Of a stretch of 43,101 nucleotides of DNA, positions 22,701 to 41,627 are shown one piece after another (position 1 is the stretch's first letter; every line of letters starts with the position of its first letter). This DNA comes from Thermosynechococcus sp. WC_1 (GTDB lineage Bacteria; Cyanobacteriota; Cyanobacteriia; Thermosynechococcales; Thermosynechococcaceae). The translations under genes were made by a program, and so were the position numbers. The DNA lies in NCBI GenBank assembly GCA_020058975.1, contig JAGVDA010000004.1, positions 1-43,101 of the forward strand. Reading direction: 5' to 3'. The notes beneath the pieces are model-generated. The model was not told the DNA's origin. It saw nothing but the letters and a program-made list of their open reading frames with translations, and ran no database searches.

Positions 22701-24029
22701 CAGAGACTGGCTCGTGCGTTAGAAAGCTTCTCAGCATCGCAAGCCAAGAATCGTCACCTCCTGAGAGAGCAAGCCATTGTTCAAGCTAAATCTCAAATGG
22801 TAGCGATCGCGCTTCAGCAATGGAAAGATTCTCCTGAAGTGCGCGCCGAAGACTATATCGGTTATGCCTTGGGCTCATTGGCTATAGCCTGCCCTGAACA
22901 AGAAGTATCCTGGGAACCAATAGACCCCACCCCACACTGGCCTGAGTTTGAGGCATCCTGCATTCATCCAGAAATTATTGCACTGAACGCCGAAAGTATA
23001 GATGGCTATGAGGTTTATGACCGACTGCTCTCCCACAAGCTAGCCACGATGGGGAGTGGGCAAAATGTAACGGCACCGCAGCGGCGACTCATGGACAAAT
23101 ATGCTGGTGTCGCAGAAGGCGGATGGTGGGCGAAGGGAGGCGTTGACCCGCAAAGAATGGATAAACCTCAAGAATGGGGCACATTTAAGGCAGACACACC
23201 ACGGATGGGGGCAGACAAGCCGATAAAGTACGAGTCGCCGTTAGGGATGCCACGCGGCATCTTTCTGCCGTATGTGCCGGACGAAATTGCACAAGCCATC
23301 TTCAGGAAATATGACATTGTCGCCCCTACGGATAAATTCTGGGAGGTGGTGCGTGAACGTAATCTGCCCATCGTCATCACAGAAGGCGCAAAGAAAACTT
23401 GGGCTAGTCTCAGCCAAGGTATTATCACAATCGGGGTGTCCGGCGTGAATGGTCTCTACATCACCAAAGACCCCGACGGAAATAAGTTGCCCAAGCGCGA
23501 ACTGAACCCAGACATTGCGGTCTTTGCGACACCAGGACGCGAAATTACAATTGCTTTCGATCAAGACACCAAACCACGCACCATTGAGAATGTGAGGCGT
23601 GACATGGTGCGGGGTATTGAGCTGTTGGCAGAGGCGGGTTGCTCCGTTCATGTAGCGACCTGGGGCACTGACACCAAAGGATTGGACGATCTGATTGCCA
23701 AGCGCGGAGGAATGGCCTATCAAAGAGCAATTGATGAAGCTATTCCCCCACAGTCATTTATGGACGCCCATTACCTGCTTCAGTATGAGAGGGCAATCTC
23801 CAAAGCGACAAGAGAATATCCAGATGCCCATATTGAGTTCCTGGACACGGAAGTTTGGAGTAAGGCTCGGGAGGATGGTCGACGGTTCGTCGGAGCAGGA
23901 GCCAAAGATCGGGGGATTGACCCTGATCTATACTGTGATGAACTGCTAAAATATGGCCCACAAATTAGGGTTAAATTCTTGCAAAATAGAATAGAAATAG
24001 AGCGCAAAAATGTTAGATTGCGGCGTTAA
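19800..24029 (+). CDS. MobF (TrwC-type) relaxase-helicase with C-terminal DUF3854-like domain
   Basis: 1409 residues. The relaxase domain (about 1-310) has a probable nicking Tyr14 (GYF), the signature HDMTLSASKS (76-85), and the metal triad H139, H150, H152 (H-x10-H-x-H). The helicase has Walker A GLSGVGKT (about 416-423), Walker B LVVDEAG (about 479-485), GDTGQ, and a late ATPase motif near 810 (NYRAQGSDRF). It nicks oriT, becomes attached to the strand and unwinds it. Residues 843-953 are odd, Arg/Asp/Gly/Ser-rich sequence that overprints a separate ORF (22330-22659). A DUF3854-like toprim region follows (ITEGAKKTWASL, near 1198; AFDQDTKP, near 1257). The last 100 residues are unassigned. 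It follows the XRE gene with no gap. The oriT was not found. Confidence 0.9.
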   Translation: MKTDFDIKASNKGYFTANEFLDDAEAQPIWAGSLCSELKLSGAIEHEAFLKMQDGILPNGRRMRGKNNKGEEIAGHDMTLSASKSYSLHALEDPRLVDAYINACKKTITTAEKHFALYRAGEDRHTELGKGFVASIIPHWTNRNMDPNLHAHCILFNGTKTQTSKWRSLDMHPISREQWLGNYFRNLLAKEAQALGYSIHEVLMKNGTYGFEFDGISQENIDAFSSRALEIQAAMEEHGWSAKEACYKTRPSKKTQPTLEDLRLSTREARESLGIVLQVPTTPNTIQRDPTNAVKSAIAHLSERLCKFEKSDIYKRVFSHIEGLDIEDVDVVIAKMPTLLDYGLIKCRKEQGVYTTIEALERETRTLNDWLGRKCSPIMAQSEALERIDTTTVNEGQLHAVLGLLSSDDTHQILHGLSGVGKTRTLKPFKALAESAGIKLRWFAPSLDAAKKLSESINAPAETLQRLVYTDYKIRLGEILVVDEAGLASAQMIDILVQKANAVGARILLVGDTGQNRPIEAGTPVISLMEAGATTHNVSEILRQKDGIQKRAVTLASRGNTMEALNLLDKYSYVEEIAGQDERTRAIANEYLSLPPEERANTLIVAGTHAEKDAIVDWIRTGLKAEGVLGESASITRLRDKGWTKEHGRDIRNYQIGDYIALSKVFKYCPLIKDEFHKIVGIEGALLKVESYGGQVYDFDPAQFIEKRVFAANKMDIAVGDELRWQHTNYKRERKNGEIFTVVGINGPFATIKDKKGKTRRIRLDSPIAVDYTITTTNYRAQGSDRFRVLVSATDDPTSSKEAFYVSISRQIHEIKIWTSSIEALRRRVSRSKIHANPLKELHHDFIDRSSNRIDSTTGNCSKERNQPREYGAHDLDGHGRADEQASGRGQQDLGCVGFDGNQHRFNRPRSGAESLSARSTERLDSRTEPVKLENIGAEQDHLEALTDKILDLAYQQRMSQELSAPLQRLARALESFSASQAKNRHLLREQAIVQAKSQMVAIALQQWKDSPEVRAEDYIGYALGSLAIACPEQEVSWEPIDPTPHWPEFEASCIHPEIIALNAESIDGYEVYDRLLSHKLATMGSGQNVTAPQRRLMDKYAGVAEGGWWAKGGVDPQRMDKPQEWGTFKADTPRMGADKPIKYESPLGMPRGIFLPYVPDEIAQAIFRKYDIVAPTDKFWEVVRERNLPIVITEGAKKTWASLSQGIITIGVSGVNGLYITKDPDGNKLPKRELNPDIAVFATPGREITIAFDQDTKPRTIENVRRDMVRGIELLAEAGCSVHVATWGTDTKGLDDLIAKRGGMAYQRAIDEAIPPQSFMDAHYLLQYERAISKATREYPDAHIEFLDTEVWSKAREDGRRFVGAGAKDRGIDPDLYCDELLKYGPQIRVKFLQNRIEIERKNVRLRR
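22330..22659 (+). CDS. Coiled-coil ORF embedded in the relaxase gene, other frame (109 aa)
   Basis: 109 residues, MTLSTEVQTELTQLLEIARR onward, with a long helical C-terminus rich in Gln, Leu and Asn (EQNRYQLDQQNGLIAEQNQS, then LKILEQNKTILKLLQTKSS), which looks like a real coiled coil. It lies in the frame one base ahead of the relaxase. An AAAGGAACTACACC site precedes the ATG. The relaxase reading of the same bases is low-complexity, as expected where a frame has been captured. No family recognised. Confidence 0.6.
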   Translation: MTLSTEVQTELTQLLEIARRNEISLENMVPTILMGMDERMNKPQVGGNKTLDALASMAISIDSIAQGVEQNRYQLDQQNGLIAEQNQSSLKILEQNKTILKLLQTKSST

Positions 24030-24861: not shown

Positions 24862-25063
24862 CGGTCGTTCTCCTAATTTCAATAATTCGCATCACTTCAG
24901 ACCCCGTCAAATGATAAAACTTGCCGATTTTCTCACAAGTTCGTGAAGATGGTAGTGTCCTTGAACTTGAGGCGTTTGGGCTGAACCATCGGGTGATTGA
25001 TGCAATATCAATCCCCGTGGTCTTTGAGATTTTAATGAGGGGGTCTGTTTCGAGATCAAGCAT
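24851..25063 (-). CDS. Small HTH protein (70 aa)
   Basis: 70 residues. The ISKTTGIDIASITRWF segment is a helix-turn-helix of the small phage/plasmid repressor kind (lambda-like), followed by CEKIGKFYHLTGSEVMRIIE, a second helical pair. Its start (25063) overlaps the preceding stop as TAATG. It may regulate the transfer operon from its distal end, but no operator is visible. Confidence 0.65.
   Translation of the reverse strand: MLDLETDPLIKISKTTGIDIASITRWFSPNASSSRTLPSSRTCEKIGKFYHLTGSEVMRIIEIRRTTDVR
24873..24905. repeat. 33-bp direct repeat, right copy
   Basis: Identical to 24358-24390. It overlaps the 3' end of the HTH gene (coding GSEVMRIIEI). The two copies bracket the 159-residue coiled-coil gene. 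Confidence 0.9.
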
Positions 25064-26424
25064 TAGAGTTTTACAGCAGATTTTTGAGCAGATTCACCTA
25101 CAGCATTTTTGACAGCGCCAATGGCTAAGTCTTTCGCAACCTGAGCAGCGATCGCGGCAGGCCCAGCAAGAACCGCAACGGCCTCTGTCGCCTTCGAAAG
25201 TTGTTGGTAGTCAGCAGCATTAAATTTCGCTCCTAACTTAGGAACGTTATCACTATCGACCGAAAAGACTTCGCCGCGTTCCTTGTGCGATACGGTGATG
25301 ATACCCCCATCGTTATTCTTGTAGGTGTAATCCCCTAACTTAATCTCTGGGACGTTGTCGTGAAACTCAAACATGGTCTTGAGGTCTTTGGAAATCCCCT
25401 CGACATTAAGTTGCGATTGTTCAAACAGTCCAGCTTTTTCCCCGATCTTATCCATCGCCTTTTGCGCGAGGTTCTTGCCGAAGTTGACGGTCTTGACCAT
25501 ATCCACTTTGGCGCGGTCTTGAATATTGGTTAGAACAGTATCAACCTTATTCTTCGCCCAAGCCTTCAAGAAGGGGATAGGTTCCTGATTCGCAATTTTA
25601 GCCATGGTCTTTTTCATGGACGCCACTTCGCCCTGGAGTCCCTCAATTTTTGCAGTTAGGTCAGCAATAGTTGAAGCAACCACTTCTGGCGTTTGCATTT
25701 TTTCGGGGATGGTGGGAGCAACCACTTCTGGTGTTTTTTCGAAGATAGATGAAGCAACCACTTCTGGCTTTGGCGACAACTCGACGGAATCTGCCTTGGC
25801 AAGTAATGCGGCACGATAGTCGCTGGAGGCGTCTGTTAAGTAGCTAAGTCCTTCGGAAATTCGAGGCCCATCACCCTCAATCTTGACGTCTAGATTAGTG
25901 TTTATAAACCCGCTCCCTTGAGCTAAGATTTCAGTGAATTCTTCTGGCGAAATATCATCCGCAATCGCCATCTCTCGCACCATATCGTCAGCGCCCTTTT
26001 GCTCAACAATAGGAAGGGTTTTCAATTCTTCATAATCAATTTTAGGGAAGCTAAGAGAATTGGGATGTTTATCTAGCAATGCTTGATACTTCTCCTTTGC
26101 TTCATTGACTTGAATTGGATCAATCTTCTGCTTAAGCCCAAGATCATCTTTATTGATTGACCCATTCACCTGTTTGAAGACAGGCGCTTTGCCATCTTTG
26201 ACAGCAATAGTCCCTTTCCCTCCATATAGCGCTTCGTGCGCAGCAACAGCGGCCTTCTTGTCCATAGGTTGCCCATCCTTCGGAGGATACAGCTTACTGG
26301 CTCCAACGAAAATATTAGGAGTTTTCCCCGTTTGCTGCTTAACAAGGTCAGCAATTTTTTGAAGTGCCATCAGCATGTCGCGAGGCTGAGGCTGATAATT
26401 CGCATGGTTGATTAGCATACTCAT
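25063..26424 (-). CDS. Large plasmid protein, unknown function (453 aa)
   Basis: 453 residues without signal peptide. The N-terminal half has an ADLVKQQTGKTPNIFVGASK stretch and a helical middle. A Pro/Glu-rich linker has three copies of PEVVA (TPEVVA-like, about 230-262), and a Gly/Ala-rich C-terminal helical region (AVAVLAGPAAIAAQVAKDLA) may contact membrane. Cysteine-free. The ATGA overlap ties it to the zinc-ribbon gene upstream. It looks like a plasmid-specific accessory protein; no domain was identified. Confidence 0.65.
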   Translation of the reverse strand: MSMLINHANYQPQPRDMLMALQKIADLVKQQTGKTPNIFVGASKLYPPKDGQPMDKKAAVAAHEALYGGKGTIAVKDGKAPVFKQVNGSINKDDLGLKQKIDPIQVNEAKEKYQALLDKHPNSLSFPKIDYEELKTLPIVEQKGADDMVREMAIADDISPEEFTEILAQGSGFINTNLDVKIEGDGPRISEGLSYLTDASSDYRAALLAKADSVELSPKPEVVASSIFEKTPEVVAPTIPEKMQTPEVVASTIADLTAKIEGLQGEVASMKKTMAKIANQEPIPFLKAWAKNKVDTVLTNIQDRAKVDMVKTVNFGKNLAQKAMDKIGEKAGLFEQSQLNVEGISKDLKTMFEFHDNVPEIKLGDYTYKNNDGGIITVSHKERGEVFSVDSDNVPKLGAKFNAADYQQLSKATEAVAVLAGPAAIAAQVAKDLAIGAVKNAVGESAQKSAVKL

Positions 26425-28349: not shown

Positions 28350-28365
28350 TTGACGATTTCGTCAA
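28350..28365. promoter_or_regulatory. TTGACG palindrome at virD4 stop (first copy)
   Basis: TTGACGATTTCGTCAA, a 16-bp inverted repeat that includes the TGA of the coupling-protein gene. The same 16 bases occur at 40481-40496, also over a TGA. It may be a -35/operator or an RNA hairpin. Confidence 0.65.
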
Positions 28366-30155
28366 CGCATTAATTTCTCAAAAGCTGCTTTCTTGTCAGC
28401 CTTTGGCAACGGCAATGCTTGCTCAGCATAGGTTTCACGTTCCAATAAATCAGCTTCGGTCAGTGTTAATGCAATAGGGTTGCGTAGTCGAGTATTACGG
28501 AACTTAAACCATGTAGCCTTAGCTCGGTCGGCCTCGATCTGTTCATTTTTGTTAGGGGTAATATTGACTTTGAAAAGCATTTGAGATTTCTTCTCCCCAT
28601 TCTCGGTGCCCTCTGTTCCCGGTGATCGCACATAGAAGAGTCCCTGAGGTGCTTCTTTAAGCGCCTCGACGGGAACCAAGTCTCTCGTGGTGAGGTTGTT
28701 GTTGTCCGAGGAGCTGCCACCAAGGAGAGCGCCTTTCTGCGTGGAGTCTGATGATGTTTTGTAGGAAATGTCCTCCTTCCCGAAGGATTCAGAATACTGT
28801 TTGATGGTGCGATCGCAGTTGAGCTGCCCTATGAAGACGGTCTTGGCATTGGCGAGAATCTCCTCCATGGCAAGTTTCCCGTAAGTAGCCTCAATATTAG
28901 GATGGCTTTGCGCCGCCAATAGGTAGGCAACTCGTTTTGATCGCGCATCAGCCATCTGCCCCGCGATGGCAGGAATGAGAATACGCGGAAACTCGTCCAT
29001 AGCCATAATGAAGGGGTATGGCGTGCCCCGCTTGCCACTGTAAGTATTGAGGCGCAACTGCATGTGGATGATACTGGCCATGAGAGGGGCAAGCGTCTTC
29101 TCGTAGAGCGGGTTCATGCGATAGATGATGAACTCTTTGTGGCCTGTTATCAAGGGCATCGTGGAAGTGCCGCAGAAAGTTGCCCAGGAAGCATCGTTTT
29201 GGAATTTGGTGAGAACCGTCAAAGTTGTGGCGATGATACTTGCTGCGGTCTCTGGGCTTCCCGCTGTCGAGATAAGCTGCTGAGCCAAAATCTTGATTTT
29301 CTGAGGAATGTCTTTGTTATGGAGTAGTCGATCAAGCAGGTTGGGCAATGACAGAGCTTTATGGGCTAGTGCTAGGTCAGCAAGATCTTGTCTCGGTTGC
29401 CACTTTAGCCATAGGAAAATGAACTGCATCGCCAATTTCCCAGACAGAGGGAAAAACCCATCATCATTGGATTGCTTGCCTTTATTGACATTGGCATAGA
29501 CAACTTCAGAGAGTTCGCCAGCACTTTCTGAGTCGGTAACTGCATCAAGTGGGTTGATTTTGTCGCTATCTGCATAGCCAGGAGCCACAACTCGGACATT
29601 GTAGCCCTGCTCTAATGCATATCCGGCTAATGAACTGGATGGACAACAGGTTCTGTCTGTCTCTTCGTCTCCCTTGAAGTCAAAGAACCCGACGCTGAAG
29701 CCTTGAAGGATCAGAGACCGGATTATGGGGTCAAATGCTGAGAATGACTTACCAGCCCCTGAGCTGGCTAAAAGCAGCATGTGCTCATTGAGGCGGTCAA
29801 GGGCAATGCCAGGATCCGTCATCCCAAAATAGCGATCGCTGTTGATGAGGAATTTTGGCTTACCAATCCACCCGCCAAATTTCGCAAACTTCTTCTTGCG
29901 GTGCCCATCAACAATGCTACTTGTTACACGACGTTGAGACTCTTTCCATTCTTTCTTCTTCGCCTGCCGTGCGCGACCCAACTTTGTGCCCTTATTCCCC
30001 CGCTTCTTAGAGAAACGCACCACAATAACCAGAATCAGAAAGAACGCAAGATAGCCCCCAACCAAAAGCACGGGCATGGGGATATCCTGGAGCGATAGCT
30101 TAGGGAGCGGGGGAATAAGGGGGTGGAGTGTGTTGGTGTTTTTAGGTTGAGACAT
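28362..30155 (-). CDS. VirD4/TraG-type coupling ATPase (597 aa)
   Basis: 597 residues. One N-terminal membrane segment (about 28-48), a basic juxtamembrane region, Walker A ASSGAGKS at 130-137, a FFDFKGDEE strand near 157, and Walker B FIMAMDEFPR at 382-391. These are the marks of type IV coupling ATPases, which hand the relaxase-DNA complex to the secretion channel. Only one transmembrane segment is visible, where classical VirD4 often has two, so this fits the shorter TraG/TcpA-like group. It starts right after the 249-residue gene. Confidence 0.85.
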   Translation of the reverse strand: MSQPKNTNTLHPLIPPLPKLSLQDIPMPVLLVGGYLAFFLILVIVVRFSKKRGNKGTKLGRARQAKKKEWKESQRRVTSSIVDGHRKKKFAKFGGWIGKPKFLINSDRYFGMTDPGIALDRLNEHMLLLASSGAGKSFSAFDPIIRSLILQGFSVGFFDFKGDEETDRTCCPSSSLAGYALEQGYNVRVVAPGYADSDKINPLDAVTDSESAGELSEVVYANVNKGKQSNDDGFFPLSGKLAMQFIFLWLKWQPRQDLADLALAHKALSLPNLLDRLLHNKDIPQKIKILAQQLISTAGSPETAASIIATTLTVLTKFQNDASWATFCGTSTMPLITGHKEFIIYRMNPLYEKTLAPLMASIIHMQLRLNTYSGKRGTPYPFIMAMDEFPRILIPAIAGQMADARSKRVAYLLAAQSHPNIEATYGKLAMEEILANAKTVFIGQLNCDRTIKQYSESFGKEDISYKTSSDSTQKGALLGGSSSDNNNLTTRDLVPVEALKEAPQGLFYVRSPGTEGTENGEKKSQMLFKVNITPNKNEQIEADRAKATWFKFRNTRLRNPIALTLTEADLLERETYAEQALPLPKADKKAAFEKLMR

Positions 30156-30905
30156 TTAGCGATCACCTTCAACTCTTTCGCGGAAAAAAGTGATGATGTC
30201 CTCAAGAGCGCTTGGCGTCAAAGTATTGGGTTCAATAGTATATTCAATAGTCTGAGCGCTATATGTACGAACTCGAATCCAAGCCATCCATCCAGATAAA
30301 GTTCTCCAGTTTTCTGTCTTAATTTCTGCAACGCGAGGCATAGATCGAATTGCGTTGATCAGCAGTTGCTCAAGATTGACCTGAATTTCGCCTGGGGGCA
30401 GCTCTGTAATTCGATGTCTTAAGGCTTGAGGGGCATCCGCTACGCTAAGAGGAGGCGCTGCATCCTCCACAAAATCAGAACAGTCCCCCTCGCCACTCAT
30501 GGCGTAGGGAGGGTTGATGGCACACTTCAGATCGCGCAGGTGTTCTCCCCTGACTGGACGGTCAAAGTCTTTGTTGCGGTATTTGCAGGTACGGCATTGT
30601 TCTTTGAGTTGAGTTGATTGAGGGCAAAGAGGATCGTCAATTATGACTGAATAAACTGTGGCATCTCCTCTTGGGCTACCACGGTCAAACAATAAAGTAG
30701 GAGAAATCCCAGTTGATTGAGTAACTCGCTCCAACATTGCCATAGTCTCAACATGGTTGGGATGCGAACGATCATAAGGGATCTGAATCGTGCGATCGTC
30801 CCCAGAACAAGCCGACTCAACAGCAGGAACTATCTTAATGTCATCGTCTGGGATAGTTATGCGCCCATTCTCCAGCAACCGCACCAGTCTGTCGTAAAAT
30901 GTCAT
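30156..30905 (-). CDS. Cys-rich unknown protein (249 aa)
   Basis: 249 residues, without signal peptide. A cysteine set (PLCPQST, CRTCKYR, DLKCAINPP, GDCSDF; about residues 92-143) has the look of a small zinc or iron-sulfur site. The N-terminus DRTIQIPYDRSHPNHVETMA and the C-terminus (IRVRTYSAQTIEYTIEPNTL) flank it. It lies between the secreted protein and VirD4 and overlaps the former as ATGA. A cytoplasmic helper of transfer is a reasonable guess, not proven. Confidence 0.6.
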   Translation of the reverse strand: MTFYDRLVRLLENGRITIPDDDIKIVPAVESACSGDDRTIQIPYDRSHPNHVETMAMLERVTQSTGISPTLLFDRGSPRGDATVYSVIIDDPLCPQSTQLKEQCRTCKYRNKDFDRPVRGEHLRDLKCAINPPYAMSGEGDCSDFVEDAAPPLSVADAPQALRHRITELPPGEIQVNLEQLLINAIRSMPRVAEIKTENWRTLSGWMAWIRVRTYSAQTIEYTIEPNTLTPSALEDIITFFRERVEGDR

Positions 30906-31420
30906 CTAATTTTTACCTCTTTCTCAATTTGCTTACTCCAAGGCAAAACTTTAGTCTTTGCTGGGATTTTAACCCCCAATGTCTTCAACGCCGAAGCGTC
31001 CTCCGGCGTCAGAGTCGGGAATTTTTTCGCCAAGAACCATTGTTGATATGCCGCCGCCCCCCCGCGATTTTTGATGGTGTTTTTGAAGGCAACCAAGGCA
31101 AAGGTTTTTGCGACAGGGACTGGCACTCCATAGGACATGGAACCGCCTTCCCCCACATCGACATAGCTCAAATAGCAAGCGCGATTGCCCGTGTTTGGAC
31201 GCCGCACAACCACCCGCAGTTCTTCTGCTCGTTTGGCGCTGCCCAGTACCAAGAAATGGTAGTCACTGCCCTTATAGCGAACAATCGCTAAGGGAGAAGA
31301 TCGGGCCACCGTCACGTTCATTACCTGCTTTGGGATGCAAGATTGCGGCAATTGCTCAACAGCTTGGGCTGGAAGTGCTGCGGCAAGGAGGATGCATGGG
31401 ATTGGGATAAGGTATTTCAT
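30902..31420 (-). CDS. Secreted protein, unknown function (172 aa)
   Basis: 172 residues with a clear signal peptide (MKYLIPIPCILLAAALPAQA, probable cleavage after AQA). The mature part has two cysteines (QSCIPKQ, RACYLSY) and a C-terminal basic tail. It probably acts in the periplasm alongside the secretion channel. The start at 31420 overlaps the upstream stop as ATGA. Upstream in-frame extension is rejected because it overlaps the neighbouring gene. Confidence 0.65.
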   Translation of the reverse strand: MKYLIPIPCILLAAALPAQAVEQLPQSCIPKQVMNVTVARSSPLAIVRYKGSDYHFLVLGSAKRAEELRVVVRRPNTGNRACYLSYVDVGEGGSMSYGVPVPVAKTFALVAFKNTIKNRGGAAAYQQWFLAKKFPTLTPEDASALKTLGVKIPAKTKVLPWSKQIEKEVKIR

Positions 31421-31806
31421 AGCATCGATCTCCCTTCTACTCCACGCTCTAGGCGAGTTCGGGTTCTTTTTTGAAGACAAGTCAGCGCAGCTTCTAGGTG
31501 AGACAGTGCATCTTGGTTGTCGTCGCAGGCAAAGTCGCCTTCTTGAAAACAGCGCAGACGATCTATGCAAACAGTGATCAGTGCCTCTTGTGTAAGGCCA
31601 TTTATCCCAGCTTCTAGCACAGGGCCATTCTGGAAGCTAATCTGGCAAAGTTTAATTTCTTTGGTGCCGAGTTCTATCTCTCGCAAAAGAACAGTTGCTG
31701 AAATAAGATATTCGTGGCAAGCACCACCAGCCCCTGGCTCGTCTAAGACATTGATGTTGATTTGATTATCAATGCCTTCAATTTTATGATCGGTTAGCGG
31801 TCTCAT
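31417..31806 (-). CDS. Acb2/Tad1 hairpin-domain-like protein (129 aa), candidate anti-defence
   Basis: 129 residues. From the ATG at 31806 (behind AGAAGGAG), DEPGAGGACHEY at about 22-33, FQNGP at 58-62, then EAGINGLTQEALITVCIDRL and a C-terminal helix pair ending KRTRTRLERGVEGR (113-126). This pattern (FQNGPxxExGxNG, DRLxxFQ, RTxxRxxRGVEG) is the one I know from phage proteins with an Acb2/Tad1-type hairpin domain, which in some phages bind cyclic nucleotide signals and silence CBASS or Thoeris. The family match is by remembered pattern. Binding to any signal is inference. It lies between a VirB1-like hydrolase and a secreted protein in the transfer operon. Confidence 0.7.
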   Translation of the reverse strand: MRPLTDHKIEGIDNQININVLDEPGAGGACHEYLISATVLLREIELGTKEIKLCQISFQNGPVLEAGINGLTQEALITVCIDRLRCFQEGDFACDDNQDALSHLEAALTCLQKRTRTRLERGVEGRSML

Positions 31807-31820
31807 TTTCAAATCTCCTT

Positions 31821-34328
31821 CTAGTTGCTTGTATTCAGCATAGTCAATGGGTCAACATAGTCTCCAGTCAAATAATTACCATTTACAGTTCCCTTGAGAA
31901 CACCATAGTGAAGGTGCGGGCCCGTACTGTTTCCCGTATTGCCCCCAAGTCCAATCGTTGCACCCTGGGGGACGGGGGTGCCAAGCGCTCCAACGTACCC
32001 ATCAAGGTGCGAATATTGGGTCATGACACCGTTGCCATGGTCTACAAAGACGGTTTTACCATAGCCGCCGTACCACCCTTGATAGACAATTTTGCCATTA
32101 GCAGAAGAGACGACGGGAGTCCCAATCGGAATCCCATAGTCAATTCCTTTGTGGTTGGTAGATCCAATGCCGCCAGGGCTTTCACGAAGCCCATAGTAAG
32201 AGGTTATTGGGCCACTCGCCACAGGCCGCATCAAGGCTCCCGATGTCTTGCCCGTATAAGCCCCAGGGCTGGTGCCACCGGAGGCATTGGTACAGGTAAC
32301 AGACCCCGTGCCAGCGGCAGAACCCCCCGCCCCAAACTTCGTGAGATTTGCTGGGCTTGACCAAATGGGAGAAGCGTCGATACCTCCAGGTAAAGACGTA
32401 AATTGATTTTTCCCTAGGGCTTTATCAGCGGCAGCAAAGTCCCCCTTCTGGATAGCGCCTAAAATATCGACATTTATCTCATTGCCATACAGACCAATCC
32501 ACGCGAGCGTAGCTTTATCTCGAACAGCCTTGTCTTGGCTCCACGCATCTAAATCAGGATATTGAGCCAGCACCGCCTGTCGGGTTGACCCTTTAAATTG
32601 ATACTCACCATAAGGAGCGTCGCTGCCAGAGGCAGGGACTGCACCAAGGTTAACGCCACCGCTGGATTCTCCGGCGGCAATTCTTGCCAAATATTGTTTG
32701 ATATTGCTTTGAGGGACTTTATTGGAAACAACCGGAGTTGTCGTACCGGTGCCATCGGCTGCGGACTGAACATCGCAGGGCGCAGAGCTATTGTTGAGCG
32801 AATTGATTGCATCCTCTACAAACTTAGGGGTGCTGCTTGACACCAATAGCAACCACTCGTTTTGGCGCGCTTTAAAGATTGTCGGAACAGGGATAAAGTG
32901 AGGAGTGCAGGTTTTTTTTCCCGTAAATGGAATGTCTACGCAAATCTGAAGGTCAAGCTGAATATCTGCCGCCGCTCGTTTATTAGCTCCAGGCTTCTCT
33001 TTAATGTTTTTAAGGCTCAGCTTTGCTGGGTTGTAATCAGCCGCACTCCCAAATGGCTTCCATCCAGTAGGTTCCCATCCTCCATTAATTTTGCCGAGAG
33101 GCCCCTTCCCCCCTTTAGCCTGCTGAACCTGCCCGTCAACCATTTGTTGACCTTTATATCGTCCTTTGTTGATGCCCATATTCATGTATCCCATCTGGAA
33201 ATGGGCACAATTATGGGTTTTGCCACGCCCTTTCTTCTCACTATTTATTTTGCAATTGGTTGGAGTCTGAACGTTATTAGGTGTCCCGCCAGTGAACGCA
33301 TTGGGGTCTGGCTGTTCACGTTTCCTCGCATAAGCAATGTCCAGCTTGACCGCAATGTCGCCTTTTACCAGAGGGATTGCCGCTGATACGGCAGACTGGA
33401 CAATGGGGGCATCCTTAAGTCCTGGAATCTTAGAAATGTACTGAGAGCCAATTCGCGGAAGCGTAGACAAAGGGGCATTAGCAATATTCCCAAGGTCTGA
33501 TATGGGAATGTCTTTTGCGATCGCTCCAATTGGTAAGTCCTTGAGCGCGTCGTTACTTAGAATATAGCCTGCGAGTTTCTGCCCACCAAATTGAAGCCCT
33601 TGACTAAGTGCAGCTTTGTAGTTGCCCGATGTCAATGCGCTTGCAATTGAACCGATGGGGAGATTTTGCCAGCTTTGAGGAAGATTTTTGAGTGCTTCTT
33701 GAGCTCCACGTTGAATGCCAGCATCTAAAGCCCCTTGGAAATCCCCAGATGCAAGTTCTCCAATGGGGACTTCCTTCAGCTCGTCGGGGAGATCGGCATA
33801 TTTTGTGATTAGCGTACCGCCAGCACTGCCCAGAGACCTTAGAGATACGGCACTAGTCCCTCGCGTCTGCGGATTTGAGGACACGTTTTTTCTGATTTGT
33901 GCTTGCAGGCCAGCAGGGACTTGCCCATTGTTAGCACGGATAATCTCTCCTAGCGTCAGGGTAGAAGCGTAGGAAGAATCTTCAATGGTTGTTGTTGTGG
34001 AAGATCTCCCTTGAGACGAAAGGAGATCATTAATGCTTTTGTTCCGATCTTGAAAATACTGAGCCCCGTTAGGTAAATAGGTATTGGTCAAATCACCAAA
34101 TTTAATAGTTCGTCCCAATGAAGCATTGGTAGGAACAGCACGCCAAACGTTATAGGGTAGCCCTGTGCTACCGCGAAACCCAGAAGGCAAGGGTTCAACC
34201 CAAGCCTCTCCAGTTCCAGGGGTTTGACTCCAAGACCCCAGGGGCTCAGCCCCATTCGAAGAAAGGATTTGAGCAGAAACAGGGAGGCAAAATAGGAGAG
34301 TGCCTATAGGGAGGAAATATTTTAGCAT
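31821..34328 (-). CDS. VirB1-like lysozyme/M23 bifunctional peptidoglycan hydrolase (835 aa)
   Basis: 835 residues with a signal peptide (about 1-19). The long N-terminal part has several repeats of LPIGxIA-like segments (DLPIGAIAKDIP, NLPIGSIAS, EVPIGELAS) and an extended unassigned region. About residues 540-625 resemble a muramidase (AAGESSGG, then GEYQFKGSTRQAV). The C-terminal 710-820 form an M23 endopeptidase with HKGIDYG, YSHLDG and HLHYG zinc motifs. It would cut peptidoglycan to make room for the transfer channel in the cyanobacterial envelope. The start at ATG 34328 (TGATG overlap) is preferred over TTG 34331. Confidence 0.85.
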   Translation of the reverse strand: MLKYFLPIGTLLFCLPVSAQILSSNGAEPLGSWSQTPGTGEAWVEPLPSGFRGSTGLPYNVWRAVPTNASLGRTIKFGDLTNTYLPNGAQYFQDRNKSINDLLSSQGRSSTTTTIEDSSYASTLTLGEIIRANNGQVPAGLQAQIRKNVSSNPQTRGTSAVSLRSLGSAGGTLITKYADLPDELKEVPIGELASGDFQGALDAGIQRGAQEALKNLPQSWQNLPIGSIASALTSGNYKAALSQGLQFGGQKLAGYILSNDALKDLPIGAIAKDIPISDLGNIANAPLSTLPRIGSQYISKIPGLKDAPIVQSAVSAAIPLVKGDIAVKLDIAYARKREQPDPNAFTGGTPNNVQTPTNCKINSEKKGRGKTHNCAHFQMGYMNMGINKGRYKGQQMVDGQVQQAKGGKGPLGKINGGWEPTGWKPFGSAADYNPAKLSLKNIKEKPGANKRAAADIQLDLQICVDIPFTGKKTCTPHFIPVPTIFKARQNEWLLLVSSSTPKFVEDAINSLNNSSAPCDVQSAADGTGTTTPVVSNKVPQSNIKQYLARIAAGESSGGVNLGAVPASGSDAPYGEYQFKGSTRQAVLAQYPDLDAWSQDKAVRDKATLAWIGLYGNEINVDILGAIQKGDFAAADKALGKNQFTSLPGGIDASPIWSSPANLTKFGAGGSAAGTGSVTCTNASGGTSPGAYTGKTSGALMRPVASGPITSYYGLRESPGGIGSTNHKGIDYGIPIGTPVVSSANGKIVYQGWYGGYGKTVFVDHGNGVMTQYSHLDGYVGALGTPVPQGATIGLGGNTGNSTGPHLHYGVLKGTVNGNYLTGDYVDPLTMLNTSN

Positions 34329-35605
34329 CAATTTCTATTATCCAATGTTTGTCGTTCCAGTATTTGCCTTGCCTTCATCAAGGCGATCGCCGCGCTATGC
34401 GGTACAACGGCATTACCTAGTGCTTTCAATCGTTCTTTGCGATGCGGAATCTTCAGTCCGTCTGTGGCATTGCAAATTTCATCAGTAACTTCATAAGGAC
34501 TAAGCAATACAGGTGCCCCGACTTGAGGAACTGTAAGGTCTGTCCATCCAACAGGAAACCCCATCATATGCTCAACAAAAATAGGAGCAAGTTTACGCCC
34601 AGCGTCAAGGGTTGTAGGCAAGTTTTGGTTCCCACCCCGCTCTTGATACCCTGCGCCGCTATTCCCCTTCCAGTCGCGAGCTTGGGGAGTTGGGAGAGAA
34701 AGATAGGCCACACGATCTCTTAGTTGCTCTCCTCTGTTTTTATCAACTTGAGCAGCATTGCCACCACGCCAATCGCTGGTGATTGGCGTGGGCAACATAG
34801 CCGCCGCAGACAAATGAAGTGTCTGCCCAGGAGCATGAGATTGAACCCCTGGGTGTTCGCCATCAACGGCTTTGAGGGTTTTAAAGACTGCTGTAGTTAA
34901 ACCATCACCAGCCTTGTCGCTGCACCCCTTACGGTTGTGATTACCGTGAACGGTTGGAGTGGGAAGTGTTGCGAAGTGTTTTTGAGCTTCAGGTAACTGG
35001 TCGGCAGCGATCGCCTTTAGCAATACCTGAAGACTTGTAATACACTTCCTCTCACCTCCTTTCATCCGTTTTTTCATTGCCATATGCGCTGCTGGCGATT
35101 TATTGTCGTCATTCGCTACGGGCGTAGGCAGCATTTTAGGATAAGTCCCAAGGTCAATTCCCGCTAAAGCGCTTCTGAGCGCCCATCCATGCCGCCCTTC
35201 AAGTTCAGCGGGAGTCGGTTTTGTCCGCCTGTTGTCATTGTCATTCGCTGTCGGAGTCGGAAGGATATGCAACGATCCAGACCCTCTCCCGTCGATGGCA
35301 TCCACCCACCTCGGCGCATGAAACAATGCTCCATTCTGCATCGTAGCCGACTTGGGCAAGCTCCCAGAGTACGCGTTCCATCCCCCGTCCAAGCAAAGCT
35401 GCGACGTTTTCAAGGACAACGATCCTGGGACGAATCTCGCAAATGAGTCGGATAATTTCAAAGAATAGTCCTGACCTTTCGCCTTCAATGCCTGCTTGTT
35501 TCCCAGCGTTCGAGATATCCTGGCAGGGGAAGCCTCCAAAAATGGCGTCAATGCGTTCAATTCCGGCATCTCTAAGAGACTGAGCTGTAAGTGTTGTGAC
35601 ATCAT
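34328..35605 (-). CDS. dcm: C5 cytosine methyltransferase, C-terminal/target-recognition part (425 aa)
   Basis: 425 residues in a frame different from the N-terminal part (35241-35753), overlapping it by 365 bases. The C-terminus RKERLKALGNAVVPHSA is motif IX/X of C5 DNA methyltransferases. MMGFPVGWTDL and repeated LPTPxxxD phrases (ILPTPTANDN, LPTPVANDD, TLPTPTVHGN) mark the variable target-recognition region. The first 100 residues (KTSQLCLDGGWNAYSGSLPK and so on) resemble a known accessory pattern yet overprint the catalytic domain. The ATG at 35605 has no ribosome site, so translation could also arise by a +1 shift near the TGA at 35243-35241. M.AquI of a cyanobacterium is a precedent for two overlapping subunits. 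Confidence 0.7.
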   Translation of the reverse strand: MMSQHLQLSLLEMPELNALTPFLEASPARISRTLGNKQALKAKGQDYSLKLSDSFARFVPGSLSLKTSQLCLDGGWNAYSGSLPKSATMQNGALFHAPRWVDAIDGRGSGSLHILPTPTANDNDNRRTKPTPAELEGRHGWALRSALAGIDLGTYPKMLPTPVANDDNKSPAAHMAMKKRMKGGERKCITSLQVLLKAIAADQLPEAQKHFATLPTPTVHGNHNRKGCSDKAGDGLTTAVFKTLKAVDGEHPGVQSHAPGQTLHLSAAAMLPTPITSDWRGGNAAQVDKNRGEQLRDRVAYLSLPTPQARDWKGNSGAGYQERGGNQNLPTTLDAGRKLAPIFVEHMMGFPVGWTDLTVPQVGAPVLLSPYEVTDEICNATDGLKIPHRKERLKALGNAVVPHSAAIALMKARQILERQTLDNRN

Positions 35606-35753
35606 TAAAAACTGGAATCCCAGGATAACGAAGGTTTAATACTTTCTGGCAATAAGGATCAATTTCGCAGAAGGCCACCGTCTCAAATCCACCCACAAGG
35701 TCGGACGCAATTGCAAACCCCCCAATGCCTGAGAATAGATCTAGGACATTCAT
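35241..35753 (-). CDS. dcm: C5 cytosine methyltransferase, catalytic N-terminal part (170 aa)
   Basis: 170 residues with motifs I (LDLFSGIGGF, 4-13), IV with catalytic Cys77 (GGFPCQDIS), VI ENV at 115-117 and VIII-like CHRRER at 152-157. It ends AYPSDSDSE* at TGA 35243-35241, before the target-recognition and motif X parts, which lie in the other frame (34328-35605). Alone it lacks DNA-target elements. Either two subunits assemble, or a +1 shift fuses them, or the gene is broken. Its start overlaps the VirB9-like gene stop as ATGA. Confidence 0.8.
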   Translation of the reverse strand: MNVLDLFSGIGGFAIASDLVGGFETVAFCEIDPYCQKVLNLRYPGIPVFNDVTTLTAQSLRDAGIERIDAIFGGFPCQDISNAGKQAGIEGERSGLFFEIIRLICEIRPRIVVLENVAALLGRGMERVLWELAQVGYDAEWSIVSCAEVGGCHRRERVWIVAYPSDSDSE

Positions 35754-36118
35754 TGAACAATCAAAGTCCGTTTCACCGGTGCCCCATATCGCACCCGCAG
35801 CTTATAAATATTGCGAGAGTTAGTGGTGATAGTCACGAAGGACATTCCGCTAACGGGACGTTCTCCTTTATTGATGAGCAACGATGTTGGGGCAGAGCCG
35901 GAGCATCCCGCCTCTTTGCACATTGTGCCATCTAACGGCTGTACGTTGACCCAGCCAGGAGGTGTAACGATGACGGAGCGGATCTTCTCTCCGGTCTTGA
36001 TCTGAAGGGTGACACCTTGCGAATCGGTGCGAACCTCAGTGACCCGATTGATGGCCCAGGATGGGGCAATTTGGGCTGTATCGATGGTATTTAATGCGAT
36101 GAGTAGTGGGATTAGCAT
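35750..36118 (-). CDS. VirB9/TrbG-like N-terminal domain protein (122 aa)
   Basis: 122 residues with a signal-like N-terminus (MLIPLLIALNTIDTAQIAPS). The sequence WVNVQPLDG, SLLINKG and SFVTITTNSRNIYKLRVRYG matches the N-terminal beta domain of VirB9/TrbG outer-membrane core proteins (WxVxP, then NLxVTTxxRxYxFxL). The C-terminal domain that contacts VirB7 is missing: full VirB9 is about 250-300 residues. It may be a minimal or split version. It sits in the right neighbourhood (VirB7-, VirB10-like genes nearby). Confidence 0.6.
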   Translation of the reverse strand: MLIPLLIALNTIDTAQIAPSWAINRVTEVRTDSQGVTLQIKTGEKIRSVIVTPPGWVNVQPLDGTMCKEAGCSGSAPTSLLINKGERPVSGMSFVTITTNSRNIYKLRVRYGAPVKRTLIVQ

Positions 36119-36120
36119 AA

Positions 36121-36420
36121 TCAATCCAAAAGGTTGAAATCGTTCAAAAGCTCTTGTCTCGTAACAAAAAAGCCCTTCCCATCAGGGACACCTAAAAGTG
36201 CTCCTTCTCCGTGGTCGCAGAGCCATTCCCCATCAATATCAAAAATGGTGGCACAGTCATCAGAGTTAGCCCAACAAGGCCCCCACCATTCCCTAGAATC
36301 TAAAGGGAATATCTGATCGTTTGCAGACTTTGTCCACCCTAGAAACTCCAACCATTCATACTCGTCCTCAAGGACAAGCACGTCTCCCTTCGTGAGATTT
36401 TTTAATTCTTGTTCTTTCAT
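36121..36420 (-). CDS. Acidic small protein (99 aa)
   Basis: 99 residues (MKEQELKNLTKGDVLVLEDE), with GDVLVLEDEYEWLEFLGWTK and WLCDHGEGALLGVPDGKGFF. It looks like a small beta-barrel type domain, but no family is recognised. Overlaps ThyX as ATGA and ends two bases before the VirB9-like start. Function unknown. Confidence 0.55.
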   Translation of the reverse strand: MKEQELKNLTKGDVLVLEDEYEWLEFLGWTKSANDQIFPLDSREWWGPCWANSDDCATIFDIDGEWLCDHGEGALLGVPDGKGFFVTRQELLNDFNLLD

Positions 36421-37178
36421 GGTGCTAAAAGGTTTTTGCCGGCTCGATTCTGTTCATACCACTCGAAGAATTCTGGCTGCCATTCCTTGAGTTTTCCCAA
36501 GACCATCCAAGCAAGAACTTGTGCCTCAATCTGGGTATCGGAAAGAGTTCGTTGGTCTAGTGCGTGAAGAATAGCGCGAATTGTCCCAGCCATTGTGAAG
36601 TTTTGACGATAACCAGAGGAAAGAACCCGACGCGCATATTCTTCTGGCTTGCCGGACTCAACAAGCAAGGCATATTTGACGGTAGAAGCATGAGCTGCCT
36701 CAAAATACTGTGCGCGATCGCCATCTGTCACTTCATATGTTCCAGATCGAGTCGCGTAAACTCCGACAGGTTGACAGTAGAAAACAGATTCAATGGGGAT
36801 TTCGTACTTGGCTGCGGCAATCATGCGATCGCCTGTATACCTCATGCTTTGGCAGAGAGGAAAAACACCAGGAAAAATCTGAGTGGGAACCTCAACGTCA
36901 AACTGTGAATTTTGATGCCGAACCCATTGCATCACACAGTCATGCGGAAAACCGCCGATGTGTAAGGCAACGTAACCGTAATTCAAGACTGACCAATGCT
37001 TGCGCTTTAGTTCATGCCTGATAACGGCATCCGCTGAACTGACTGGAGGCTTGTCGTCTAATGAAAAGCCTTCTGTAACGCAAGTATGTTGTGCAGACCA
37101 GATCCCTTTTGCCGCATTCGCTGAGGAACTATTTAGATCGATCTCAACTCGAAAGTAAGAGTCGTTTATTTGAATCAT
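36417..37178 (-). CDS. thyX: ThyX-type flavin-dependent thymidylate synthase (253 aa)
   Basis: 253 residues. The segment VRHQNSQF (86-93) and QSMRYTGDR (110-118) correspond to the ThyX motif RHRxxSxN/QSxRY, with altered residues and a 15-residue insertion between the two halves. FTMAGTIRAILHALDQR (about 208-224) fits the C-terminal nucleotide/flavin region. ThyX makes dTMP from dUMP using methylene-tetrahydrofolate and FAD. The altered motif (RHQ not RHR) makes activity uncertain. It is coupled (ATGA) with neighbours in the transfer operon. It might supply nucleotides during transfer. Confidence 0.75.
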   Translation of the reverse strand: MIQINDSYFRVEIDLNSSSANAAKGIWSAQHTCVTEGFSLDDKPPVSSADAVIRHELKRKHWSVLNYGYVALHIGGFPHDCVMQWVRHQNSQFDVEVPTQIFPGVFPLCQSMRYTGDRMIAAAKYEIPIESVFYCQPVGVYATRSGTYEVTDGDRAQYFEAAHASTVKYALLVESGKPEEYARRVLSSGYRQNFTMAGTIRAILHALDQRTLSDTQIEAQVLAWMVLGKLKEWQPEFFEWYEQNRAGKNLLAP

Positions 37179-37408: not shown

Positions 37409-37443
37409 AAAAAATGAGATCGCAGCTAAAGAGCTGCAATCTC
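37409..37443 (-). terminator. Intraoperon terminator/attenuator (minus strand)
   Basis: Stem GAGATxGCAGCT/AGCTGCxATCTC with a 4-nt loop (37416-37443) and six T (A on plus, 37409-37414), reading toward lower coordinates. It lies after the gene ending at 37539 and just before the ribosome site of the gene at 37396. Bases 37444-37538 hold no gene. Confidence 0.7.
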
Positions 37444-37538
37444 ACAGTAGCTAGAGATGCCTGTCTATTCCAGGCTGTCACGCAGGTTCGTCGTTTATGG
37501 GGTCTGATTTCCTGCCAGCAAGCGACCCGTAAAAAAAA

Positions 37539-38017: not shown

Positions 38018-38239
38018 TCAAAAACCTACTGCTTTACATGGAACAGAAGCGATTGATGCCGATACATAATTGTAGGAAGTTGTCGAGAAAGTATATGCAA
38101 AGCATAGACCTGTCTTTGCCTCTTGCATGTATTTAATCTCTGGGAGATTTGATACTTGACTGGGGATATATTGATCACATCCCCCGACAAGTAACATGCA
38201 TAGAATTAAAGCAAAAAGAAATTTTGCTTTGCTGATCAC
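38018..38239 (-). CDS. VirB7-like lipoprotein (73 aa)
   Basis: 73 residues. The signal peptide MISKAKFLFALILCMLLVGG is followed by Cys21 (lipobox LVGGC), so the mature protein would be lipid-anchored. Small lipoproteins beside VirB10/VirB9 are typically VirB7, which stabilises VirB9. Two later cysteines (LCFAYTF, VPCKAV) could form a disulfide. It overlaps the VirB10-like stop as ATGA. The assignment rests on size, lipobox and position. Confidence 0.7.
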   Translation of the reverse strand: MISKAKFLFALILCMLLVGGCDQYIPSQVSNLPEIKYMQEAKTGLCFAYTFSTTSYNYVSASIASVPCKAVGF

Positions 38240-39660
38240 CGAGCCACCTCGGTCAGCTCAATGTCCTCGTTAGCGACCAACGCAATGGAGGTTTTGGGCT
38301 TGAGGTAAAAAGAAGTTGGTGCATTGCGTCTAGACCGTTGCTCTGGCTCTAAAGCGCTATTGACGCTATCTAACCCCTCAACGGCAGTAGACTGAATGAC
38401 CCGATCTCCGAAGCTATCTCCTTGGGGCATCATGGACGCAACCCCAACATTCAGAAGAGACCTTCCAAGTCGCGACAAAACACGACCTGCTCCTCCTCGT
38501 TGCCCAGGTTCTTTGATTTTTGCCTCAATCATTCCATCTCCCATAGAGGCTGTCAGCATCCCCGGCTTAATTGCAAAAAGTTTGCCGGATGGAGTTTCGA
38601 TTCGGGTGACACTAGCCATAATGAACTGGCCCGAAGTCCCTTTCTCGGATTGGGCAATAGCGATTGACCCTTTCGGAATGACTGTCTCACCATTTTTAAA
38701 ATCAGCTCGAACTTTGATCCGAATCTCTTCGCCGACGGGGAAACTATCGTTGGCATCCCAAGACAGAAACGCCATGGTCTGGCCCTTGATCGTCGCATCA
38801 GCCGGAATCATTGCGAGTCGTGCAACAAGACGTTGACGGGATTCTTCCTCAACCTCTTGGGGGTACTTATTCGAATATTCAATCGCGGTCAACGGAGCTT
38901 CAGCGTCCTTTGGTGCGGGGCTGATGGCAACGGGTTCTGTCGCCGTTTTGTCGATTCCATCATAAATGGCGATCGCTTCATCTGTCTTAGTCGAACCTGT
39001 GGGGACAGTCGCTACGGTGTTTTCTGCTCCCATGTCAACGTCAGGTCCTTCCTCTGTGACGGATGCGTATAATGCGCTCACTGCCTCGGGCAACGGTTCG
39101 GGCTTGACCTCTGCCACTGGGCGCAAAGCCGCTGGAGCAAATGGACGAACCGGAGTCGGCGCAGGCGGAGCCGAGGCAACTGGACGGAATGCCCGTTCAG
39201 GTGCATAAGACCGTTGAGAATAAGGCCCTTGACGTGCTGGCACGTAAACAACAGAAGGAGGAACTCTTTTGGACGCAACCACAGGTTTTTTCTTTCCCAC
39301 CGCAGGCTTGTCGGCAGCAGGCTTTTCTGCCACGGGAAAAGAAGGTGATTGCTCAGCCTTTGGCAAAAAGTTGTCGGTCTTTGGCTTGTCTTGGAATGGG
39401 TCTACTCCCGCTGGTGCAACGGCAACAACCTTATTGGTGTTACCCAGGTATGACCCTAATCCATAAACAAGGAGAATAAATCCTACTCCGCCTCCAGTGA
39501 CCATCATCCAAAGCGCTGCCGCTGTTTTGCGAAAGGGAACCGCTTGGACGTGCGCATCGGGATTTTCCACGGATTCATCGGGCGCAAGAGAGAACGTTGC
39601 CGGAGTAGGGTCGGCGGCTGTCGCTTGGAGAAAATCATCCCAGTCTTTTGCTTGTGTCAT
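38236..39660 (-). CDS. virB10: VirB10/TrbI-like channel protein (474 aa)
   Basis: 474 residues. A short cytoplasmic N-terminus, a membrane segment (about 48-72, ALWMMVTGGGVGFILLVYGL), a long Pro/Ala-rich periplasmic linker (about 100-260) and a C-terminal TrbI-like beta domain (about 280-474; GQTMAFLSWDANDSFPVGEE, then KVRADFKNGETVIPKGS). VirB10 spans the envelope and senses energy from the ATPases. Length and layout fit. Confidence 0.8.
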   Translation of the reverse strand: MTQAKDWDDFLQATAADPTPATFSLAPDESVENPDAHVQAVPFRKTAAALWMMVTGGGVGFILLVYGLGSYLGNTNKVVAVAPAGVDPFQDKPKTDNFLPKAEQSPSFPVAEKPAADKPAVGKKKPVVASKRVPPSVVYVPARQGPYSQRSYAPERAFRPVASAPPAPTPVRPFAPAALRPVAEVKPEPLPEAVSALYASVTEEGPDVDMGAENTVATVPTGSTKTDEAIAIYDGIDKTATEPVAISPAPKDAEAPLTAIEYSNKYPQEVEEESRQRLVARLAMIPADATIKGQTMAFLSWDANDSFPVGEEIRIKVRADFKNGETVIPKGSIAIAQSEKGTSGQFIMASVTRIETPSGKLFAIKPGMLTASMGDGMIEAKIKEPGQRGGAGRVLSRLGRSLLNVGVASMMPQGDSFGDRVIQSTAVEGLDSVNSALEPEQRSRRNAPTSFYLKPKTSIALVANEDIELTEVAR

Positions 39661-39663
39661 GAT

Positions 39664-40443
39664 TTAAAAAGAAGTGTTGGTGTAAGGAAGAATTCGAGTT
39701 AAATACAGCCCCCGCTGCTGAGAAAAAGTCACGGCTACGTTATAAGGATTTTTCGCGCCATTAGCAGTTGGGCGTAAAAATTCTCTGGTATAAATCCAAT
39801 AGTATTTACTGAATTTACGAGTGTCAACAGACCCAACTGACTCGGTAAATTCTATCTCTATCGGGGTTCTCATTTCGTTCCCATTTTTCCCCTCCTTGAA
39901 TTCTTCTGAAACCCCAATCTTTGTAACCTTAATTGTCCTTGAGTCTTGAGATTTAGCCTCATCAAAGTTTTTCGGCTTAAATGATAGGATCCATTTCATC
40001 ACTGGCTCTTGAGATTCAGGAGCCACCAAGTGCTGATAGGCATAGGCTGCCGAAGTAAATTTGCCATAAGGCGTAATCGCTCCTGGGTCTATGCCGCTTT
40101 CGCATTGCTTGAAGAGCTTTACACTCCTCTCCTGCTTGGCAATCTCCTTGCAGGTTGACTGAAACTCAGCGGTTGTGCGCTTAACCCATGAAAATGATGA
40201 AATGATTTCAGCAATAAATTGCTCACGGTTTTCATCTTCCGTAACTTTTTTCCCCATTACCATCTGCCGATCTTGTCCAATTTGGACAGGGATGTTACGA
40301 CTAGCAAGCCTGTCCAATTTTGTAGTGAGGTTGGCATTGCTGATGCACTGGCCAATCATGGAAAAAATGACAAAGATAGGCAAAGTCTTCCCCACAACAG
40401 GAAGGATTGATTTCACCAAAGATAGATTTTTTCCTGTTTGCAT
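39664..40443 (-). CDS. VirB8/TraE-like inner-membrane protein, tentative (259 aa)
   Basis: 259 residues with one N-terminal hydrophobic segment (about 11-34) and a soluble domain of about 210 residues ending in beta-like YWIYTREFLRPTANGAKNPY and TFSQQRGLYLTRIL. That topology and place directly before VirB10 fit VirB8/TraE, which nucleates the channel. The sequence lacks a motif I could use for proof. It begins with weak ribosome site AGAGAG. Confidence 0.5.
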   Translation of the reverse strand: MQTGKNLSLVKSILPVVGKTLPIFVIFSMIGQCISNANLTTKLDRLASRNIPVQIGQDRQMVMGKKVTEDENREQFIAEIISSFSWVKRTTAEFQSTCKEIAKQERSVKLFKQCESGIDPGAITPYGKFTSAAYAYQHLVAPESQEPVMKWILSFKPKNFDEAKSQDSRTIKVTKIGVSEEFKEGKNGNEMRTPIEIEFTESVGSVDTRKFSKYYWIYTREFLRPTANGAKNPYNVAVTFSQQRGLYLTRILPYTNTSF

Positions 40444-40480
40444 AATTCACTCTCTTGCATACAACCACAGTACAGTCTAC

Positions 40481-40496
40481 TTGACGATTTCGTCAA
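40481..40496. promoter_or_regulatory. TTGACG palindrome at VirB5-like stop (second copy)
   Basis: The same 16 bases as 28350-28365, again overlapping a TGA stop (VirB5-like gene) and 38 bases before the next start. As a promoter the minus strand would read TTGACG, a 16-17 bp spacer, then a poor -10 (TGTACT). Confidence 0.65.
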
Positions 40497-41347: not shown

Positions 41348-41372
41348 AGAAAACCCTTCAGTGTCCTGACGA

Positions 41373-41621
41373 TTATTTGACTGGGTAGTTTAACTGGCAA
41401 ACGTTTGGGTCTCTCCCGTCTTTGATGCAACGCTCATGAAATGCAACGAATGGGCTTTCAATATTTCTAGACAGTTGGTGTTCTTTTGGCACCATCAAGA
41501 ACATCAACGGAGCAATTACCTGCATCGCTGCCGAGAATATAAGGATTTGGATTTTATACCTCCAAAGCAAATAAAGTGGAAGCGGCAGAATTAATCCTGT
41601 TTTTCTATCGTGAATGTACAT
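41373..41621 (-). CDS. Small membrane protein (82 aa)
   Basis: 82 residues. One or two hydrophobic stretches (IQILIFSAAMQVIAPLMFLM, about 29-48, preceded by LPLYLLWRY), then a cysteine-containing tail (ERCIKDGRDPNVCQL). No family recognised. The size and place resemble small VirB-associated membrane proteins. ATG 41621 behind AGGGAAAA. Confidence 0.6.
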   Translation of the reverse strand: MYIHDRKTGLILPLPLYLLWRYKIQILIFSAAMQVIAPLMFLMVPKEHQLSRNIESPFVAFHERCIKDGRDPNVCQLNYPVK

Positions 41622-41627
41622 TTTTCC

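Follow-up and report, generated by a model that had tools for sequence, protein, structure and literature searches.

A predicted Tad1-family nucleotide sponge gene located among the transfer genes of a cyanobacterial conjugative element

The window analysed here is a single contig of 43.1 kb (C216), and the case described is a single one, from one incomplete assembly of 580 contigs (83% complete). The window shows the features of a conjugative T4SS, with syntenic VirB6-VirB8-VirB10-M23-VirD4 genes and a DUF3854-bearing MobF/TrwC relaxase-helicase (19800–24029, plus strand). The relaxase and the T4SS matches suggest a cyanobacterial assembly related to Acaryochloris. The other features listed in this paragraph are all on the minus strand. 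The channel block comprises a VirB6-like gene (41628–42833), an 82-aa gene (41373–41621), and VirB5-like (40493–41347), VirB8-like (39664–40443) and VirB10-like (38236–39660) genes, all assigned by position and by weak homology to the operon of Acaryochloris marina plasmid pREC2; a Pfam search of the VirB-like genes in this region (38236–42833) gave no match. A search for VirB4 with PF03135 was negative in the incomplete genome; the window contig ends at VirB6, and in pREC2 the corresponding gene has the annotation DUF87. The VirB6–VirB10 block is probably divided from the block that follows, running from thyX through tad1 to virD4, by a terminator-like hairpin of 14 pairs with a T-run (37414–37445), recognised by a consensus scan only. 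The first gene past this hairpin encodes a ThyX-type thymidylate synthase (36417–37178). Next come the genes for a 124-aa transfer-block protein (35750–36124), a C-5 cytosine DNA methyltransferase (34328–35753) and an M23-peptidase transfer protein (31821–34331), the last being the upstream neighbour of the tad1-like gene. The methyltransferase is split into two overlapping frames of 170 aa and 425 aa and appears frameshifted, which could reflect a true frameshift, a programmed shift or an error in sequencing. On the other side of the tad1-like gene are genes for a 172-aa protein that, as judged by eye, seems to have a signal peptide (30902–31420), a 249-aa protein with a cysteine cluster (30156–30905), a VirD4/TraG-type coupling protein (28362–30155) and an RLIG1-like RNA ligase of phage type (26912–27454; PHROG 14301, 4.5e-70), followed by a 453-aa transfer-block gene (25063–26424).

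The tad1-like gene itself spans positions 31417–31806 on the minus strand and encodes a predicted nucleotide-sponge protein of the Tad1 family, as assigned by PHROG 2428, a profile match to Tad1 in the PDB and the fold. The ORF is intact and encodes 129 aa, with the ATG at 31806 and the stop codon ending at 31417. An AAGGAG ribosome-binding site, read from the sequence, lies on the same strand at 31815–31820, 8 nt upstream of the ATG and immediately past the stop codon of the M23 gene. The gap between the M23 stop and the tad1 start is 14 bp, and the tad1 stop overlaps the start of the 172-aa gene by 4 bp (ATGA). Comparison with a second copy in the same genome, on contig C390, gave a dN of 0.30 and a dS of 2.5, the latter near saturation, for a dN/dS of roughly 0.1, which indicates purifying selection on the pair. 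Because of the ribosome-binding site, the tight packing with its neighbours, this selection and database E-values far below chance, we conclude that the ORF is a genuine gene and not a chance frame. A chance ORF or an assembly chimera was ruled out, conserved transfer genes lying directly on either side across the 14-bp gap and the 4-bp overlap.

A preliminary description of this DNA had placed an ORF at these positions, and we find it there on the minus strand with all the quoted motifs (DEPGAGGACHEY, FQNGPVLEAGING, DRLRCFQ and RTRTRLERGVEGR). The same description located the gene within a secretion operon. Its place is borne out, since tad1 lies between the M23-peptidase and secreted-protein genes with VirD4 beyond, in agreement with two reference operons. 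The operon itself holds for the block from thyX through tad1 to virD4 and not for the VirB6–VirB10 block, which the terminator-like hairpin probably sets apart. The same hairpin suggests that tad1 is transcribed with the thyX–virD4 block rather than with VirB6–VirB10.

The two reference operons come from C277, a sister element of this genome, and from pREC2, which is listed in PLSDB as conjugative, MOBF and MPF_T. The sister element shares the gene order of the window, with VirD4 77%, M23 55% and VirB10 47% identical, the 124-aa protein 65% identical and the 453-aa gene in common. Plasmid pREC2 corresponds to the window gene by gene and in the same order: VirB6-, VirB5-, VirB8- and VirB10-like genes, the 124-aa protein (37% identical), M23 (32%), a small secreted protein and VirD4. 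C277 and pREC2 each have a small gene immediately after M23 and ahead of VirD4, and the pREC2 gene in this position is the homologue of the 172-aa gene; in the window, tad1 sits between M23 and the small gene. A tblastn search with Tad1 gave no match in C277 or in either of the Acaryochloris regions compared. Since the sister element and the Acaryochloris conjugative plasmid keep the gene order without tad1, we regard the gene as inserted cargo. That tad1 is a native T4SS component was ruled out, the same slot being without it in C277 and two Acaryochloris plasmids.

Comparison with these operons also reveals thyX, a 99-aa gene, the cytosine methyltransferase, the 249-aa gene and the RNA ligase as insertions in the window block. 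The RNA ligase is inserted between two genes that are conserved in the sister element, and the 249-aa gene is translationally coupled between the secreted-protein gene and VirD4. No relatives of the 249-aa protein were found in PLSDB, among viral contigs or elsewhere in the genome; it may be another anti-defence candidate. On a different contig (C85:21-1574; L079) the genome encodes yet another VirD4-type coupling protein, its third, 32% identical, and could therefore contain three conjugative elements.

The tad1-like protein matches PHROG 2428 at 2e-29. A single-sequence search against the PDB returned CmTad1 (3e-13), phiKZ gp184 (5e-13) and CbTad1 (1e-11), and nothing further up to an E-value of 1. 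We then used a family profile built from 21 sequences, namely the window protein and its relatives from viral and genomic contigs; this matched CbTad1 at 7.6e-36, CmTad1 at 1.2e-30 and phiKZ gp184 at 1.4e-20. Up to an E-value of 10 the profile matched no PDB chain outside Tad1, Acb2 included. The AlphaFold monomer model (pLDDT 85.9, pTM 0.75) consists of strands at residues 2–4, 16–20, 32–40 and 48–58 followed by helices at residues 73–89 and 95–121. The Tad1 fold has been described in the same order, with an N-terminal beta sheet and then two long helices (PMC12043709). In a Foldseek search of the PDB the top 20 structures were all Tad1, with TM scores of 0.64–0.77 and with gcADPR-, cA3- and cAAG-bound structures among them; the best was 7uaw (E 8.9e-9, TM 0.77), and the next match had an E-value of 0.25. 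By sequence profile and predicted fold, the window protein is a member of the Tad1 family.

The preliminary description had proposed a hairpin domain of Acb2/Tad1 type. The Tad1 half of this proposal agrees with the profile, AlphaFold and Foldseek results, whereas the Acb2 half does not hold. Acb2 consists of one short and two long helices (PMC12043709); it is thus short and all-helical, of about 94 aa, whereas the window protein has 129 aa and an N-terminal beta sheet. Membership of Acb2 was accordingly ruled out by fold and by profile, no Acb2 chain having been matched. The structural comparison with Acb2 and Tad1 envisaged in the preliminary description came out on the side of Tad1, both in the topology of the model and in its 20 nearest PDB neighbours. 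What the window protein shares with Acb2 is that of a predicted sponge with a helical hairpin, and the name “Acb2/Tad1 hairpin domain” is common to the viral relatives; the best structural relative among viral models is named “Acb2/Tad1 hairpin domain-containing protein” in UniProt. Pfam and NCBIfam searches with the tad1-like protein gave no match, although its UniProt relatives bear the hairpin-domain name, and PADLOC did not match the gene either.

The window protein is homologous over its full length to known Tad1 proteins (CbTad1 of a Clostridium botulinum prophage, CmTad1, SBSphiJ7 Tad1 and phiKZ gp184). It has the beta-sheet and helical-hairpin fold in common with them, as modelled, along with conserved HEY, FQ, N and C-terminal R/RGVEG motifs. 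Identity to CbTad1 is about 29% over the fold alignment. Residues F82, N92, R109, R113 and R57 of CbTad1 are those that we take to form the ligand pocket. The first four align with F87, N97, R114 and R118 of the window protein and are nearly invariant in the family. The position of R57 is occupied by a valine (V63), and a residue other than arginine is also found there in CmTad1 and phiKZ gp184; because these two likewise lack the arginine, its loss may merely shift ligand preference.

Tad1 and Acb2 sponges are known from phages and prophages. Phage or prophage carriage is the customary context of Tad1 rather than a structural definition of the family. The carrier of the window gene is neither, having a MobF relaxase, VirD4 and VirB-like genes in conjugative-plasmid order, and in this the window gene, set in the transfer block of a conjugative element in a cyanobacterial host, differs from known Tad1 genes. 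The second Tad1-family gene of the genome (C390:1613-2029; L002:1501-1926) lies on a 3.5-kb contig and its product is 65–71% identical to the window protein. Its neighbouring genes are related to endolysins, a minor head protein and phage families with no assigned function, and we therefore consider C390 a phage-like contig. In a tree of 30 Tad1 members the window and C390 copies pair with moderate support (90/72), and the window gene may have been donated by the C390 copy. As the closest copy that we found belongs to a phage-like contig in this genome, the flow of the gene appears to have been from phage to conjugative element, and tad1 of the element probably derived from a phage.

Elsewhere, a relative was present in 137 phage records and only 10 plasmid records. 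Two of the 10 plasmid records, from PLSDB, were inspected: the Halomonas plasmid carries terminase, portal and holin genes and the Edwardsiella plasmid an integrase and a LexA-type repressor, from which we take them to be phage-plasmids or phage-like. In both, the Tad1-like gene lies near the integrase, at similar positions (L003, L004). Searches around 52 viral and genomic Tad1 loci, with VirD4, VirB4 and relaxase sequences from cyanobacteria as queries, found no T4SS genes, though such queries may miss distant T4SS types. Apart from the window genome, Tad1 was found neither in the order (29 genomes) nor in the sampled phylum (386 cyanobacterial genomes).

We also identified immune systems that the sponge might target. 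A genome of the same genus contains a type II CBASS locus (G009:C324; L070) with a SAVED-PDDEXK nuclease effector, a CD-NTase cyclase and E1-E2. SAVED effectors commonly answer to cyclic trinucleotides, as Cap4 does. Because Tad1 members bind such molecules, the CBASS of this congener is a plausible target. Known Tad1 hexamers have six pockets for gcADPR and cyclic dinucleotides and two additional sites for cyclic trinucleotides, and they do not degrade the ligand (PMC12043709). The assembly of the host itself (83% complete) yielded no SMODS-type cyclase, and the immediate target of the sponge may for that reason lie in other hosts. The host also encodes a HEAT-repeat-TIR protein, cut by the contig end, that matches the PADLOC ThsB model at 3e-65 (C480; L071:5275-6129); its resemblance to ThsB falls short of proof that it belongs to a Thoeris system.

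We consider it likely that the conjugative element carries a sponge which is made together with its transfer genes and shields the donor or the new host from cyclic-nucleotide immunity. This reading is based on the family and fold, the position in the operon, the insertion relative to two reference operons, the purifying selection and the presence of CBASS in the genus. The element would have taken up tad1, probably from a phage, between two transfer genes, and production of the sponge would always accompany that of the second half of the transfer machine. The protein would likely assemble into a multimer (a hexamer in known Tad1) and bind without cleavage the cyclic tri- or dinucleotides of CBASS and/or the glycocyclic ADP-ribose of Thoeris, so that the alarm nucleotide would not accumulate enough to set off the suicide effector. 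Cyclic-nucleotide immunity would then spare the donor cell and the host in which the element has just become established, and with them the element itself. From these lines of evidence we infer ligand binding, co-transcription, a phage source and a benefit to transfer. Production together with the transfer genes would place the action of the sponge in donors and newly established hosts; the position of tad1 fits their protection better than that of a recipient in its first minutes, when leading-region genes are expressed. Counted against this reading are the change of R57 to V63, the failure to find a SMODS cyclase in the host and the very location of the gene among transfer genes. A further step, which we put forward tentatively and with some doubt, is that conjugation itself triggers or meets cyclic-nucleotide immunity (CBASS, Thoeris or type III CRISPR signalling), the sponge being made in step with the transfer machine.

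Quite possibly, instead, a genuine sponge is carried as general cargo, for stable maintenance or for disabling host CBASS, with no specific link to transfer and in a position that is an accident of insertion. The insertion in the same block of ThyX, the cytosine methyltransferase, the RNA ligase and the 249-aa protein, all missing from the sister, speaks for this, but the tight 4-bp overlap points to co-expression with transfer genes, so that some coupling would be expected even if it were not selected. It is unlikely that tad1 is a recent and idle hitchhiker from a phage, heading for loss: although it is the only case among the 386 sampled cyanobacterial genomes and the neighbouring methyltransferase appears frameshifted, the ORF is intact with a good ribosome-binding site, its core residues are conserved and the two copies are under purifying selection. 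Least probable is a hairpin-domain protein that was recruited as a component or regulator of the transfer apparatus and lost its binding of immune signals: the gene does lie between two secretion-system genes and overlaps one, but the sister and Acaryochloris operons are without it, its core residues agree with phage Tad1, and the protein has, by eye, neither a signal peptide nor a membrane segment.

The protein is thus a new member of the known Tad1 family in a context that is new as far as could be found. If the likely reading of a sponge made with the transfer genes is true, anti-alarm protection would be built into a conjugation operon, for which we found no report in any conjugative element within the openly accessible literature (subscription papers and preprints being mostly outside this coverage). 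CBASS and Thoeris do not appear in the main text of a survey devoted to the anti-defence genes that plasmids carry in their leading regions (PMC11541004). Those systems resemble the window in that a conjugative element has an anti-immunity protein with a methyltransferase nearby; unlike the leading-region genes, tad1 of the window is inside the block of secretion and coupling genes. Pseudomonas islands have hotspots of defence and anti-defence genes flanked by tra genes, and the main text of that survey includes neither Tad1 nor Acb2 (PMC12629846). Conflict genes are lodged among conjugation genes in both cases, whereas the window has a single sponge gene that overlaps a transfer gene. The presence of a Tad1 gene amid conjugation genes suggests that sponges are used by conjugative elements as well as by viruses, and that plasmids and conjugative elements, too, are under pressure from cyclic-nucleotide immunity.

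No relatives of VirD4, the 249-aa gene or a 903-aa gene of the window were found among viral contigs. The 903-aa protein (6727–9438) contains an LRAT-like domain, a DnaJ domain and several repeated “LDKKCGxSGIPDGAKC” segments, and a similar segment is also present in the first ORF of the phage-like contig C390.
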